A stretch of DNA of 38,578 bases. It comes from Candidatus Rokubacteria bacterium RIFCSPLOWO2_02_FULL_73_56. GTDB taxonomy: Bacteria > Methylomirabilota > Methylomirabilia > Rokubacteriales > CSP1-6. Below, piece after piece: positions 31,079 through 36,310 of the stretch. The number at the start of each line of letters is the position of its first letter. The stretch's first letter is position 1. The notes below the pieces were generated by a model that was not told the origin of the DNA, ran no database searches, and saw only the letters and a program-made list of their open reading frames with translations. Where the stretch lies: assembly GCA_001788495.1 (NCBI GenBank), contig MGCF01000048.1, positions 1 to 38,578 of the forward strand, given 5' to 3'. Made by a program: the position numbers and the translations under genes.

Positions 31079-32238
31079 GGCCGCTCGGCGTCGGGCTCGT
31101 GGGCGCGCGCTTCGCCGCGGACCTGCACGCGGTCAACTACCGGCCGCTGCGGGGCGCGAAGGTGGAGCTGGCGGCCGTCTGCGCGCGAACGCGCGCCGAC
31201 GCGGAGGCCTTCGCCGCGCGCCACGGCATCCCGCGCGTCTTCACGGACTACCGGGCGCTCGTCGAGGCCCCGGACGTCGAGCTCGTGGACGTCTGCTCGA
31301 CGACCGACACGCACCACGCGATCGCCATCGCCGCGGCCCGCGCCGGCAAGCACGTGATCGTCGAGAAGCCGCTGACCGGCGCGTTCTGCGAGGGGACGGA
31401 GCCGCGGGAGGCGATGCTCGCGCAGGCGCTCGCGAACGCCGACGCCGTCCTCGAGGCCGTGGCGCGGGCCGGCGTGACGCTCTGCTATGCGGAGGACTTC
31501 GTCTACGCGCCGCCCGTCGCGAAGCTCCGGCGGCTCGTGGAGGCGAGCGACGGCGGGATCCTCGAGCTCCGGGCCGAGGAGAGCCACTCGGGCTCGCACG
31601 CCGCGTACGCCGCGCGCTGGCGGACGTCGGGCGGCGGCTCCCTGCTGCGGATGGGCTCGCACCCGGTCGGCGCGGTGCTGCACCTCAAGCACTGGGAGGG
31701 CCGGCGGCGCCACGGCCGGCCGATCCGAGCGCGCGCGGTCACCGCCGAGGTGGCGGGCCTCACGCGGCTGCCGTCGGTCGCGGGGCTGCGCCGGTACATG
31801 TCCACGCGGGCGGAGGACGTCGAGGACTGGGCGGTCGCCGTGATCACGTTCGAGGACGGCACGCTCGCGACGGTCCACTCGAACGACGTCACGCTCGGCG
31901 GCGTGCGCAACGTGGTGACCGCGTACCTCACGAACGCGGTCGTCCACGCGAACATCACCCCCAACACCACCGTCACCGCGTACGCGCCCGACGCCGCCGT
32001 GTGGGGCGACGAGTACATCAGCGAGAAGGTCGAGACGAAGGCCGGCTGGCAGTTTCCGAGCCCCGAGGAGGACTGGATGCGCGGCTACCCCCAGGAGCTG
32101 GAGGACTTCGTCGACGCCGTCCGCGAGCGGCGCGAGCCCCTGTCCGGGGCGCTGCTGGCCCGCGAGGTGGTCGAGGTGATCTACGCGGGCTACCTCTCCG
32201 CGGCGACGGGCCGGCGGATCGAGCTCGCGCGGCCATGA
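31075..32238 (+). CDS. Gfo/Idh/MocA-family NAD(P)-dependent oxidoreductase
   Basis: 387 aa. N-terminal Rossmann domain (GVGLVGARFAADLHAVNY), an IVEKPLTG motif (EKP with catalytic-region Lys), and a C-terminal alpha/beta domain with LRMGSHPVGAVLHLKHWEG. The family oxidises or reduces sugars, inositols and amino-sugars. GTG start overlaps the GT2 stop and its own stop overlaps the DapF-like start (ATGA, 32235-32238). The position next to a glycosyltransferase suggests sugar modification. No substrate can be assigned. Confidence 0.9.
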   Translation: MRPLGVGLVGARFAADLHAVNYRPLRGAKVELAAVCARTRADAEAFAARHGIPRVFTDYRALVEAPDVELVDVCSTTDTHHAIAIAAARAGKHVIVEKPLTGAFCEGTEPREAMLAQALANADAVLEAVARAGVTLCYAEDFVYAPPVAKLRRLVEASDGGILELRAEESHSGSHAAYAARWRTSGGGSLLRMGSHPVGAVLHLKHWEGRRRHGRPIRARAVTAEVAGLTRLPSVAGLRRYMSTRAEDVEDWAVAVITFEDGTLATVHSNDVTLGGVRNVVTAYLTNAVVHANITPNTTVTAYAPDAAVWGDEYISEKVETKAGWQFPSPEEDWMRGYPQELEDFVDAVRERREPLSGALLAREVVEVIYAGYLSAATGRRIELARP

Positions 32239-33098
32239 TCCCCTTCGCGAAAGGGCACGGCCTCGGCAACGACTACATCGTGCTGCGCGAGGCGGATCTG
32301 TCCGGGCCTCTGTCCACGCCGGCGATCGTGAGGATCTGCGACCGCAACCGGGGCGTCGGCTCCGACGGGATCCTGCTGCTCGTGCGGAGCGCGCGTGCGG
32401 ACTTCGGGCTCCGCATCTTCAACCCCGACGGGAGCGAGGCGGAGAAGTCCGGCAACGGCCTCCGGATCTTCGCGAAGTACCTCTGGGACCACGGCCACAC
32501 GAAGACGGCGACCTTTACGGTGGACACCAAGGGGGGCGTCGTCGAGTGCCGGTGCCACGTCCACGACGGCCGCGTCGGCTTCGTCACCGTGGAGATGGGC
32601 CGGGCGACGTTCCGCGCGCCGGAGATCCCGATGAGCGGCGCCGACCGGGAGGTCGTCGGCGTCCCGCTCCAGCTCGCCGACGGCACCGCGCTCTCGGTGA
32701 CGGCGGTCTCGGTGGGGAACCCCCACTGTGTCGTGTTCGTGGACCGGCTCGACGAGGCGGAGTGCCGCCGGCTCGGCCCGCTCGTGGAGCGCCACCCGGC
32801 GTTCCCCAACCGGACCAACGTCCAGTTCGCGCGCGTGCACGCGCGCGACGCGCTCGACATCCTCATCTGGGAGCGCGGCGCCGGGTACACGCTGGCGTCG
32901 GGCTCCTCGTCCTGCGCCGCGGCGGCGGCGGCGGTCCGGAACGGCCTGTGCGACCACGGCCGCGTCCGCGTCCGCATGCCGGGCGGCGAGCTCGTCATCG
33001 AGGTCCGCCCCGACTGGTCGCTCCGCCTCGCGGGGCCCGTCGAGGAGGTCTACCGCGGGACGCTCTCGGCGGAGTTCGTCGCGGCGCACCTGGCGTGA
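32235..33098 (+). CDS. DapF-superfamily protein with both catalytic cysteines replaced by serine
   Basis: 287 aa, normal DapF length. The fold signatures are clear: GHGLGNDYIVL, GSDGILLL, RIFNPDGSEAE, VGNPHCVVFV, and ERGAGYTLASGSSSCAA. In DapF the proton-transferring residues are Cys in CGNGLRC and ACGTGACA. Here they are Ser72 (KSGNGLRIF, codon TCC 32448-32450) and Ser222 (ASGSSSCA, codon TCG 32898-32900). So it is unlikely to racemise diaminopimelate by the standard two-cysteine route. It may be an isomerase of another substrate, a dehydratase-like relative or inactive. Start ATG overlaps the previous stop; its stop overlaps the LOG start. The genes around it are not lysine-synthesis genes. 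Confidence 0.9.
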   Translation: MIPFAKGHGLGNDYIVLREADLSGPLSTPAIVRICDRNRGVGSDGILLLVRSARADFGLRIFNPDGSEAEKSGNGLRIFAKYLWDHGHTKTATFTVDTKGGVVECRCHVHDGRVGFVTVEMGRATFRAPEIPMSGADREVVGVPLQLADGTALSVTAVSVGNPHCVVFVDRLDEAECRRLGPLVERHPAFPNRTNVQFARVHARDALDILIWERGAGYTLASGSSSCAAAAAAVRNGLCDHGRVRVRMPGGELVIEVRPDWSLRLAGPVEEVYRGTLSAEFVAAHLA

Positions 33099-33679
33099 GG
33101 CGCGTCTGCGTCTTCGCGGGCTCCTCGGCCGGCGCGCGGCCCACGTACGCCGCCGCGGCGCGCGCGCTCGGCGCGGCGCTCTGCCGGCGCGGGCTCGGCG
33201 TCGTGTACGGCGGCGGCTCGGTCGGGCTGATGGGGGTGCTGGCCGACGCGATGCTCGCCGGCGGCGGCGAGGTGATCGGTGTGATCCCCGACGGGCTGGC
33301 GACGCGCGAGCTCGCGCACCCGGGCGTCACCGAGATGCGCGTCGTCGGCTCCATGCACGAGCGCAAGGCCACGATGGCCGCGCTCGCCGACGCGTTCGTC
33401 GCGCTGCCGGGCGGGCTCGGCACGCTCGAGGAGACGCTCGAGATCCTCACGTGGGCGCAGCTCGGGATCCACGACAAGCCGATCGGCGCGCTCGACGTGG
33501 AGGGCTACTGGAACGGCCTCCAGCGCCTGCTCGCGCACGCGGTCGAGGAGGGCTTCGTGCGCCCCGAGCACGCCGCGCTCCTGCTCTTCGGCTCGGCGCC
33601 CGACGAGCTGCTGGACCGCCTCGCGGCGTGGCGCCCGCCGGGCTTCCGGCGCGCCTGGCTCGGTCCGGCTCAGACCTGA
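33095..33679 (+). CDS. LOG-family phosphoribohydrolase
   Basis: 194 aa. The LOG/TIGR00730 motif PGGLGTLEETLE is intact, with CVFAGSSAGARP at the start, YGGGSVGLMGVLADAML and GSMHERKATMA. Members split adenosine-type nucleotides (cytokinin riboside 5'-monophosphate or other NMPs) into base and ribose-5-phosphate. GTG start overlaps the DapF-like stop (GTGA). It closes the coupled GT2-Gfo/Idh-DapF-like-LOG set, which suggests a nucleotide or sugar-linked pathway, but this link is inference. It converges with a membrane protein gene across a repeat-rich gap. Confidence 0.92.
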   Translation: MRRVCVFAGSSAGARPTYAAAARALGAALCRRGLGVVYGGGSVGLMGVLADAMLAGGGEVIGVIPDGLATRELAHPGVTEMRVVGSMHERKATMAALADAFVALPGGLGTLEETLEILTWAQLGIHDKPIGALDVEGYWNGLQRLLAHAVEEGFVRPEHAALLLFGSAPDELLDRLAAWRPPGFRRAWLGPAQT

Positions 33680-33778: not shown

Positions 33779-33805
33779 GAGCCCGATTCGTTCACGGGCT
33801 CTGAG
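33779..33805. repeat. Copy 2 of the 22-nt dispersed repeat, inside a hairpin
   Basis: The repeat CGATTCGTTCACG..CTCTGAG (33784-33805) overlaps a hairpin GAGCCCG (33779-33785) / CGGGCTC (33795-33801). The stop codon of the minus-strand membrane protein (33792-33794) is in the loop. Copy 1 lies at 10668-10689. Confidence 0.6.
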
Positions 33806-34919
33806 CCGGCGTCGGGCCGGCATGCCCGAGGCGCGCGGCGAGACGCACCGCGGCCGCGCCGCCCGCGAGCGCGGCCGCGAGCGTGAGGACGAGCGCGAGC
33901 GCGGTGTCGGCCGGCGCGGGCAGCGCGTGGGCGAGCGCGGGCGCCCGGCCGAGCGCGCCGCCCGAGGCGGCGAGGAGCGTGGCGCCGAAGGCGACGGCGG
34001 CCAGGCGCCAGCGCCGCCGCGCGTCCACGAGGACCATCAGCGCCGCGGGCAGCACCGGGACGAGGCGCAGCGTGAGCGAGCGTCCGGGCACGGTGCCGTT
34101 GCGCCGCGCCATCTCGTGGGCGAGCGCGATCGGCGAACCCGGATCCGCGGCGATCGCCTCCGCGATGGCGGGCGTCGGCCGGGTCAGCGCGAAGCCCAGG
34201 TCGCCGACGACGACGATCGACCCCTGCACGAGCACGGCGCCCAGCGCGAGCACGAGCGGGGCGCTCCGCCGCCCGCCGAGCCGCGCGAGCAGCACGAGCG
34301 TGAACGTGAAGGCGAGGCCGCCCAGGATCGCGTGCGTGAAGAAGAAGACGCCGCCCCGGCGGAACGCGGTCTGCACGGCCGGATCGGCGAGGATCCCGAA
34401 CGTGCCGAGGACGAAGATGCCGCCGAGCGCCAGCGCCGTGGCACGCGCGCGCCCCGGGGGGTAGACCTCGCGCGCGATCATGAGGCCGCCGAGGCCGGCC
34501 ACCTGGGAGCCGGCGAAGCCGAGCAGGTGCGGCGGGCTCCAGAGGGTGACGTCGAGACCGAACAGCCGGTGCCAGAGGTCGTCGACGGGGGCGGCCAGGA
34601 TGATGAGCGCGGTGCCCCACCAGGCCACGTGGAAGCCCGGCGTGCCCACGAGCCCGGCCGCGCGCAGCGTGTCCGGACCGCCGGCCCCGCGCCGCGCCCG
34701 CCAGGTCTCGAGCAGGAGGACGCCGAGCGAGAGCGCGGCGCCCGCCGCGACGGAGGCGTAGGTGAGCAGGTGCGGCGCGATCCAGAACGAGTCGCGGCCG
34801 ATCAGGAGGTGCCAGCGGATGTCCCAGCCGACGCCCCAGCCGCCGGCGAGCCGCGTTGCGAGCAACGCCCAGAGCGCGGCGCGTCGCAGGGCCACCGGCG
34901 CGGGCTCGGGCGCGCTCAC
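33792..34919 (-). CDS. Polytopic membrane protein with repeated D-x-WH...W-x-PHLL motif, unknown function
   Basis: 375 aa, about ten hydrophobic segments. Two stretches resemble each other: GWDIRWHLLIGRDSFWIAPH and, 85 residues on, VDDLWHRLFGLDVTLWSPPH, each followed by LL(T/G)(Y/F). Each carries Asp, Trp-His, Gly-x-Asp, Trp and Pro-His-Leu. Repeated intramembrane His and Asp suggest a metal or cofactor site built from two halves. The GTG start has TATCAT 6 nt upstream and no Shine-Dalgarno. It diverges from the 122-aa gene at 34945 with overlapping -10 boxes. I do not recognise the family. Confidence 0.82.
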   Translation of the reverse strand: MSAPEPAPVALRRAALWALLATRLAGGWGVGWDIRWHLLIGRDSFWIAPHLLTYASVAAGAALSLGVLLLETWRARRGAGGPDTLRAAGLVGTPGFHVAWWGTALIILAAPVDDLWHRLFGLDVTLWSPPHLLGFAGSQVAGLGGLMIAREVYPPGRARATALALGGIFVLGTFGILADPAVQTAFRRGGVFFFTHAILGGLAFTFTLVLLARLGGRRSAPLVLALGAVLVQGSIVVVGDLGFALTRPTPAIAEAIAADPGSPIALAHEMARRNGTVPGRSLTLRLVPVLPAALMVLVDARRRWRLAAVAFGATLLAASGGALGRAPALAHALPAPADTALALVLTLAAALAGGAAAVRLAARLGHAGPTPAQSP

Positions 34920-34944: not shown

Positions 34945-35313
34945 GTGATCGCCGCCTGGTGCTGGGAGCTGATCGAGCCGTACCTCGCGCGCAACCTTTG
35001 CAACCGGGGCGTCGGGCGGCCGACGCGCCGGCAGGTCCTGGAGGAGTTCGCCCGCGTGTGGCCGGACCTCACCGCCACGATCGGGGTGCAGGCGCCGTTC
35101 GCCGGGACGATCCGCTTCAAGTGGCTCGCGCGGCTCGGCGCCGGCGAGCTGGAGCCGTTCCTCGAGGACCCGGCGGGTTGGCTCGCCGCGCGCTGGGGCG
35201 GCGGCAAGTTCAAGATGAACCTGCACCACGGCCTGCACTTCGTCAGCACGAAGAACTTCAAGCCCGAGGGCGCGCCGCGCTGGCAGGACGCGCCCGAGCT
35301 GCCGGGGGACTGA
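34945..35313 (+). CDS. Small protein of unknown function (122 aa)
   Basis: 122 aa, no signal peptide or membrane helix. It has several tryptophans and a GGGKFKMNLHHGLHFVSTK segment near the C-terminus. N-terminal Trp/Cys-containing part (VIAAWCWELIEPYLARNLC) then a helical stretch. Clean coding with third-position GC use like its neighbours, and a plausible -10 box at the GTG, so I take it as real. It is followed 11 nt later by a 60-aa protein that has a Shine-Dalgarno (GAGGAG) and then by the BtuF-like gene. No family recognised. Confidence 0.7.
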   Translation: MIAAWCWELIEPYLARNLCNRGVGRPTRRQVLEEFARVWPDLTATIGVQAPFAGTIRFKWLARLGAGELEPFLEDPAGWLAARWGGGKFKMNLHHGLHFVSTKNFKPEGAPRWQDAPELPGD

Positions 35314-35324
35314 GGAGCGACGAG

Positions 35325-35507
35325 ATGCCGAGTGACGAGACGCGGCGGGTGCTCAAGGTGTTCGGCGTGGCGGTGACGAACCTCGAGGACACCATCGAGC
35401 GGAAGGCGCCGTTCGAGGAGATCATGAAGTGGGACGCGGAGGTCGCCGAGCGCCTGCGCGAGACGATCGCGCTCGTCGACCGCCTGCGGAGCCGCCGCAT
35501 CGGGTGA
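35325..35507 (+). CDS. Small helical protein of unknown function (60 aa)
   Basis: 60 aa, charged and helix-like (DTIERKAPFEEIMKWDAEVAERL). GAGGAG at 35312-35317 lies about 7 nt before the ATG. Its TGA overlaps the next ATG (TGATG, 35505-35509), so it is coupled to the BtuF-like gene. Too short for a family call. The packing between two genes and the ribosome site argue that it is real. Confidence 0.65.
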   Translation: MPSDETRRVLKVFGVAVTNLEDTIERKAPFEEIMKWDAEVAERLRETIALVDRLRSRRIG

Positions 35508-36310
35508 TGGCCGCGAGAATCGACGCCTCCGGCGCCGCGCTCGCGCTCACCCGCCCGCCGCGGCGCATCGTCTCGCTCCTGCCCTCCACGACCGAGACCG
35601 TCTGCGCGCTCGGCCTGGCGGACGCGCTCGTCGGGATCACGAGCTACTGCGTCGAGCCGCGCGCGGCGGTGCGCGGCAAGCTCCGCGTCGGCGGCACGAA
35701 GGATCCCGACCTCGACCGGATCCGCGCGCTCGCCCCCGACCTCGTCGTCGCGAACGTCGAGGAGAACGTGCGCGAGCACGTCGAGCGCCTGCGCGCCTGG
35801 GGGATCCCGGTCTGGGTGACCTACCCGCGAACCGTCGCCGAGGGCCTCCGGATGGTCCGGGAGCTCGGCGAGCTGACCGGCACGGAGGCGCGGGCCGACG
35901 ACCTGCTGGCGGAGCTCGAACCCCTCCTCGCGCGCGTGCGCGCCGAGTGCGCGCGCCGTCCGCCCGTCGCGGTCTTCTATCCGATCTGGCGCGAGCCGTA
36001 CATGACGATCGGCGCCGACACGTACATCCATGACGTGCTGGCGGTCTGCGGGGGGCGCAACGTCTTCGGCGCCCGCCCCGGGCGCTACCCGACGGTCACG
36101 CTCGAGGAGGTCGCCGCGGCGCGGCCGGAGGTCGTCCTGCTCCCCGACGAGCCGTTCCGCTTCCGCCGGGCGCACGTGCGTGACTTCGCGGGGGTCGGCG
36201 CGCGGCGGATCGAGCTGGTGGACGGCAAGCGCTTCTCCTGGTACGGGCCGCGCGTCGGCGAGGCGCTCCGGACGGTCCCCGCGCTGCTCGGCGCGGCCGG
36301 CGGGCGCTAG
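35507..36310 (+). CDS. BtuF-like metal/cobalamin-binding protein without signal peptide
   Basis: 267 aa. Periplasmic-binding fold of the helical-backbone metal receptor class (PF01497): RIVSLLPSTTETVCALGL, VGITSYCVEP, LRVGGTKDPDLDRIRALAPDLVVAN and, further on, TIGADTYIHDVLAVCGGRNVF. Cobalamin-binding BtuF relatives share these. The N-terminus (MAARIDASGAALAL) has no hydrophobic signal and no lipobox, so the protein should be cytoplasmic. No ABC permease or ATPase is adjacent. A cytosolic corrinoid carrier or sensor is possible. Start by TGATG overlap with the 60-aa gene. The stop shares CTAG with the convergent gene. Confidence 0.88.
   Translation: MAARIDASGAALALTRPPRRIVSLLPSTTETVCALGLADALVGITSYCVEPRAAVRGKLRVGGTKDPDLDRIRALAPDLVVANVEENVREHVERLRAWGIPVWVTYPRTVAEGLRMVRELGELTGTEARADDLLAELEPLLARVRAECARRPPVAVFYPIWREPYMTIGADTYIHDVLAVCGGRNVFGARPGRYPTVTLEEVAAARPEVVLLPDEPFRFRRAHVRDFAGVGARRIELVDGKRFSWYGPRVGEALRTVPALLGAAGGR

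Follow-up and report, generated by a model that had tools for sequence, protein, structure and literature searches.

Gene content of the locus

The window (i.e., the whole stretch of 38,578 bp that was analysed, from a Candidatus Rokubacteria contig) carries, on its minus strand at positions 33792..34919, an open reading frame of 375 amino acids that starts with a GTG codon at 34919 and ends with a stop codon at 33792–33794. The predicted product is a PmoC-like membrane protein, in which two parts can be told apart. The N-terminal PmoC-like module (residues 1–160; 34440..34919, minus strand) was delimited via AF2, Foldseek and a module profile, and is predicted to consist of four helices that form two hairpins. 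The C-terminal helical part (residues 161–375; 33795..34439, minus strand) was delimited via AF2 helices of lower confidence and via conservation; it was less conserved than the module, revealed no metal-type motif and, in columns 200–434 of alignment A3, showed no resemblance to PmoC.

The gene is present as a single copy in the host genome, and its nearest named relatives are located on contigs of Candidatus Rokubacteria (86% identity), and homologues were found in 30 of 60 searched genomes. It is neighboured by a lysine-decarboxylase/LOG-type gene (33095–33676, plus strand), next to what we take to be dapF (32235–33095), and by a periplasmic binding protein gene (35504–36307). This neighbourhood is repeated in many rokubacterial loci and is uninformative on copper; no copper genes were found among the window gene's own neighbours. 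Divergently oriented from the PmoC-like gene lies a conserved 122-amino-acid orphan without a Pfam family (34945–35310, plus strand), the frame of which was matched in 15 other loci.

A duplicated and invariant Asp/His/His motif

An earlier reading of this DNA from its letters only (further referred to as the sequence-only reading) had pointed to a twice-repeated motif in a membrane protein, and both copies were indeed recovered in the 375-amino-acid open reading frame, i.e., DIRWHLLIGRDSFWIAPHLL (copy 1, residues 33–52) and DDLWHRLFGLDVTLWSPPHLL (copy 2, residues 113–133). Their central residues are spaced as D33-x3-H37-x12-H50 (residues 33–50, also including R42; 34770..34823, minus strand) and D113-x3-H117-x13-H131 (residues 113–131; 34527..34583, minus strand), and were marked out by conservation and by hhalign alignment to the CuC and CuD sites of PmoC, respectively. 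The distance between both copies, previously given as 85 residues, is 80 residues when measured between the Asp residues and 81 at the third His, and the D-x3-W step ascribed to both of them occurs in copy 2, whereas copy 1 reads D-x2-W.

The six Asp and His residues, on the conservation of which the proposed site had been made to depend, were all kept in 34/34 full-length homologues that were picked by sequence search and not by motif. Within this set, D33, H37, R42, D43, H50, Y54, D113, H117 and H131 were each present in 34/34 members. Moreover, a 37-row alignment contained zero substitutions at the six residues, with one partial row lacking the Asp and first His of copy 1. Of 6,550 ORFs obtained by six-frame translation of the fetched family loci, 58 matched the pattern D-x3-H-x12-H-x(30-120)-[DN]-x3-H-x13-H, and every one of these is a family member, while a control with residue-shuffled ORFs yielded 0/6,550 matches to the exact-spacing pattern.

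When the profiles of the first and second half of the module were compared, hhalign aligned them with a probability of 97.9% (E 5e-13), from which we conclude that the unit is truly duplicated. The corresponding alignment between both halves of PmoC was not significant, and therefore no claim is made that a duplication is visible within PmoC itself. The notion of a metal site formed from a duplicated unit thus stands in that the halves align and the six residues adopt the order and spacing of CuC and CuD, making a metal at this site probable from the sequence correspondence. This support concerns a metal site as such and does not extend to the binuclear character proposed in the sequence-only reading.

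Architectures and distribution of the superfamily

Relatives were found in Rokubacteria, Actinomycetota, Deinococcota, Chloroflexota and Bacillota, and display four architectures that were labelled types A to D for convenience (types B and D not being single clades in the tree). Type A is the architecture of the window protein, while type B proteins measure ~500 amino acids, occur as tandem pairs and carry an extra soluble C-terminal domain. Type C proteins measure about 330–360 amino acids, and type D proteins combine a PmoC-like module with a FixH/YtkA-like domain. The superfamily is held together by hhalign probabilities of 99.7% between types A and B and 98.6% between profile A8 and type C. 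In the type B tandem pairs at L044:5723-10472 and L045:5926-9387, the C-terminal soluble domain contains a conserved GPAWCA motif.

The actinobacterial and rokubacterial type D relatives share the same module and all six ligands with the window protein, but differ by their extra FixH-like domain (E ~0.01, i.e., below the cut-off, in L048 and L154) and by their copper-operon context. They are annotated as hypothetical protein only, or no gene is called under the match. The position of the FixH/YtkA-like domain varies, being N-terminal to the module in the rokubacterial L048:4873-6423 and C-terminal to it in the actinobacterial L154:5947-7374.

In this phylum, 47 out of 95 genomes were matched by profile A6, which comprised 29 module sequences, while PmoC, PmoA and PmoB scored over their cut-offs in 9, 11 and 12 genomes, respectively. 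Of the 47 genomes with a family member, 44 lacked PmoA and PmoB (G042, G043 and G075 being the exceptions), and PF04896, PF02461 and PF04744 were all absent from the host genome (94% complete). The rokubacterial genome G075 contains a divergent but genuine pmoC-pmoA-pmoB set (L089; G075:C365:5680-8747), with an alcohol-dehydrogenase-like gene (named by eye) upstream and with type B paralogues elsewhere in the genome.

Plasmid records also carry family members, i.e., nine with type C (Deinococcus, Rhodococcus, Paenibacillus, Arthrobacter, Chlorohelix and Nonomuraea) and seven with type D (Streptomyces, Mycolicibacterium and Rubrobacter). These members are labelled hypothetical protein or have no gene listed, save one that is annotated as a histidine kinase. 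No relatives were found in viral contigs, nor did a phage collection, searched with PmoC only, return a match. In a domain tree, the window row grouped with type A and the eight PmoC rows were situated on one long branch of 2.28 changes per column; because long branches meet at the join between PmoC and type C, no inference is drawn on the branching order.

Correspondence with the copper ligands of PmoC

In subunit C of pMMO, the available text of PMC12576850 gives D156/H160/H173 as the ligands of CuC and N227/H231/H245 as those of CuD, with R165 forming a hydrogen bond to the site water and F177 close by. The order and spacing of the window residues are identical to those of both ligand sets. 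Specifically, D33/H37/H50 take the positions of D156/H160/H173 with the D-x3-H-x12-H spacing of CuC, while D113/H117/H131 take those of N227/H231/H245 with the spacing and both His residues kept, and with the Asn of CuD changed into Asp in 34/34 homologues and in every aligned member. R42 and Y54 are located at the positions of R165 and F177.

The window protein and PmoC/AmoC/HmoC (PF04896, TIGR03078) have in common two hairpins that read D-x3-H-x12-H and [N/D]-x3-H-x13-H in the same order, an Arg five residues after the first His and perhaps the predicted fold of the module, the hairpins being 80 residues apart in the window protein vs. 71 in PmoC. The window protein differs from PmoC in that it lacks PmoA/PmoB partners, has C-terminal helices of its own, carries Asp instead of Asn in CuD and remains below the family cut-offs. 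Moreover, PmoC has ~100 residues ahead of its CuC module that are missing from the window protein (the CuC Asp being residue 33 vs. residue 131 in the PmoC of L076). Because the family score, the partners and the N-terminal part all fail, we exclude the protein from PmoC/AmoC proper; judged from these comparisons, it is a distant relative with five of the six ligands exact.

Profile searches link the module to PmoC/AmoC

The sequence-only reading had been unable to place the protein in a known family. At curated thresholds this was upheld, as neither Pfam (PF04896) nor NCBIfam (TIGR03078) matched the window protein or reached the curated family score, and a search of the PDB with the single window sequence yielded nothing useful. 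On the relatives, PF04896 and TIGR03078 gave sub-threshold matches only (best E 0.006–0.13); of the nine places with PF04896 below its cut-off, two were non-members, and PF04896 also scored in two control genomes.

Profile searches, in contrast, did link the protein to PmoC/AmoC. Against 177,635 distinct PDB sequences, profile A6 matched ten sequences with E<=10 (best E 0.037), each of them PmoC/AmoC, and profile A8 (24 sequences of types A, B and D) matched 14 at the same cut-off, again all PmoC/AmoC (best E 4.7e-4), although the rows of A6 and A8 were cut by the motif pattern and the six positions are partly conserved there by selection (which does not apply to A3 or to the type B rows in A4). 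A PmoC query in the same library retrieved 14 distinct PmoC/AmoC sequences, equal to the A8 count. The type B alignment gave six PDB matches, the top three being AmoC and the rest two GPCR sequences and one protocadherin, and type C gave one irrelevant match and no PmoC. Reciprocally, a PmoC profile searched against the 6,550 ORFs had 40 matches listed, all of types A–D (best E 1.4e-4). The A8 profile missed the PmoC genes of the 11 PmoA-bearing genomes.

In direct hhalign comparisons with PmoC, type B reached 91.6% (E 8e-7), A6 46–53% and A8 66.6%, while type A alone and type C remained at only 1.1% and 19%, respectively; the link is therefore clear only once the profile is widened with types B and D. 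The A8–PmoC score was 37.1, whereas none of 300 column shuffles exceeded 28.6, reversed profiles scored 11–12 and five other segments (i.e., other parts of the same proteins) scored 11.6–16.1. Since the CuC half alone aligned to its PmoC counterpart with 87.5% vs. a non-significant 0.9% for the CuD half alone, the CuC hairpin is, by alignment, the firmly homologous part, whereas the putative CuD correspondence is based on the position and order of the residues and on the joint alignments. As a whole, homology of the module to PmoC appears well supported. It is very improbable that a common membrane helix bundle merely converged on the same Asp/His spacing, since, despite modest single-profile scores and the resemblance of helix bundles to many folds, the A8 search of the PDB retrieved PmoC/AmoC exclusively, the reciprocal search and the shuffle and segment controls agree with it, and the agreement with PmoC extends beyond the ligands to WH, RD and the second-shell Arg.

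Predicted structure of the module

The AF2 model of the full-length protein (11 sequences) had a pLDDT of 76.9 and a pTM of 0.80. Its fold placement was rejected, as ABC transporters made up most of the Foldseek list, Dcytb came out on top in VIA (Z 10.0) and PmoC appeared in neither list. The module-only model (12 sequences) had a pLDDT of 86.5 and a pTM of 0.81, with five models agreeing within 2 pLDDT units. Among 350,542 chains, Foldseek ranked PmoC/AmoC structures 1 to 5 for this model (7s4m, 9pxf, 7yzy, 7s4h and 9leg), and also 7 and 17, with probabilities of 0.80–0.98, TM scores of 0.45–0.57 and weak E-values of 0.08–1.2 (0.08–0.4 for ranks 1–5). Upon VIA re-alignment, 7s4m_C scored Z 9.1 (rmsd 3.4 over 143 aligned residues) and designed four-helix bundles scored higher (Z 12.1), which makes the re-alignment non-discriminating. 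Designed bundles, GPCR fusions, channels and chemoreceptor domains that matched in VIA were dismissed as common helix bundles.

The motif residues had been thought to lie within the membrane, but the predicted structure situates them at helix ends around short loops and not mid-helix. Specifically, helices 1 and 3 end at D33/H37 and D113/H117, respectively, while helices 2 and 4 begin at H50 and H131, model confidence being ~68–69 in the blocks with the motif loops. The Arg-rich loop of residues 73–95, as sole indicator of orientation, would place the motif loops on the periplasmic side.

Copper genes near family members

As counted by homologues of 15 reference copper proteins, copper genes were present in 4/7 type D, 3/13 type C, 0/9 type B and 1/42 type A loci, where the 42 type A loci include some places seen twice and the plasmid records may favour metal-resistance contexts. 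The rokubacterial type D gene of L048 is clustered with genes that encode a CsoR-type repressor, a PpoB2 copper chaperone and a CopA-type ATPase. Other type D genes adjoin a cupredoxin, an HMA protein and a heavy-metal ATPase in Streptomyces mirabilis, a multicopper oxidase and a cupredoxin in Streptomyces F2, and CopC and cytochrome oxidase genes in M. vanbaalenii. For type C, SCO1 was found in L136 and a multicopper oxidase near L151 and L152, while the sole type A locus with copper genes (L061) has a multicopper oxidase and SCO1 downstream. PpoB2/DUF2182 copper chaperones (PF09948), such as the one near the L048 gene, are likewise membrane proteins in copper operons, but constitute a separate family for which no sequence link to the window protein was found.

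Putative role and origin

Conservation, duplication, the PmoC link and the absence of PmoA/PmoB are computed results. Copper is the likely metal of the window protein by homology. The window protein is probably a stand-alone membrane protein, the module of which is distantly homologous to PmoC/AmoC and holds copper for handling and not for hydrocarbon oxidation. One ancestral duplication would have generated two helix-loop-helix hairpins, each with an Asp/His/His triad, of which D33/H37/H50 would represent CuC and D113/H117/H131 CuD with Asp for Asn. One copper ion at a time would then be bound where the helices reach the periplasm, R42 belonging to the second shell like Arg165 of pMMO, and be captured, held, passed on or sensed at the membrane rather than used to oxidise hydrocarbons. 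Copper handling is favoured because type D adjoins genes for copper export and copper chaperones, and because no oxidation pathway was found alongside the family in the loci read; by analogy with these sister branches it is the more likely role for the window's subfamily, itself almost without copper neighbours. That the family proteins would not be methane monooxygenases also fits with the available part of PMC8780371, which reports that Rokubacteria had no methane monooxygenase in 60 metagenomes and did not respond to methane, although some of them encode copper monooxygenases.

It is unlikely, if still credible, that the protein is instead a stand-alone copper oxidase or oxygenase, with a module that needs no PmoA/PmoB for catalysis and acts on a substrate that is small or membrane-soluble. 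The family conserves the proposed active-site residues of pMMO (CuC/CuD) as well as the second-shell Arg, albeit with Asp for Asn in CuD, some genomes hold several superfamily copies, and CuD has been put forward as the active site (available text of PMC12576850). Nevertheless, no electron-donor or oxidation-pathway gene consistently adjoined the family in the loci read, and type D adjoins copper export and resistance genes instead.

We give little credence to a PmoC homologue whose triads would serve another metal (Zn, Fe or Mn) or act as proton or quinone ligands. Asp/His/His is also suited to Zn or Fe, the window's subfamily is nearly without copper genes nearby, and the Asp that replaces the CuD Asn in every aligned member would fit such a role as well. 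However, the type D sister branch is situated in copper operons, and the closest solved relatives bind copper at these positions (as given in the available text of PMC12576850).

The best reading of the family, with copper handling as its favoured role, is that of an undescribed superfamily of stand-alone PmoC-like putative copper proteins; no earlier description of stand-alone PmoC relatives was found in the open-licence PMC literature. Quite possibly, although we hold this tentatively, PmoC/AmoC is a specialised offshoot of this much wider bacterial superfamily, which would have arisen by duplication of an Asp-His-His hairpin. The site that is currently debated as the centre of methane and ammonia oxidation would first have served copper handling or simple redox and later have been recruited by PmoA/PmoB, while window-type members may still perform copper chemistry alone.

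Both the active copper site of pMMO, which is under debate according to the available text of PMC12576850, and the origin of the enzyme are open questions. A small single-gene relative with the CuC/CuD residue sets and without PmoA/PmoB would allow copper, redox and O2 chemistry to be studied apart from the enzyme, so that the origin and purpose of the PmoC copper site become directly testable via a protein of an uncultured soil bacterium. The superfamily would also serve as an outgroup to root CuMMO trees, and offers a first functional hypothesis for proteins now labelled hypothetical in several phyla.

In Rhodococcus sp. WAY2, the gene directly downstream of the type C gene (L152:7118-7771) encodes a guanylate-cyclase catalytic domain joined to a YHS domain. 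In the annotated histidine kinase of Candidatus Chlorohelix (L145:5917-10038), the His residues of the type C module are replaced and the module is apparently split by a WD40-like propeller, followed by GAF and kinase domains; this protein is perhaps a former metal sensor.
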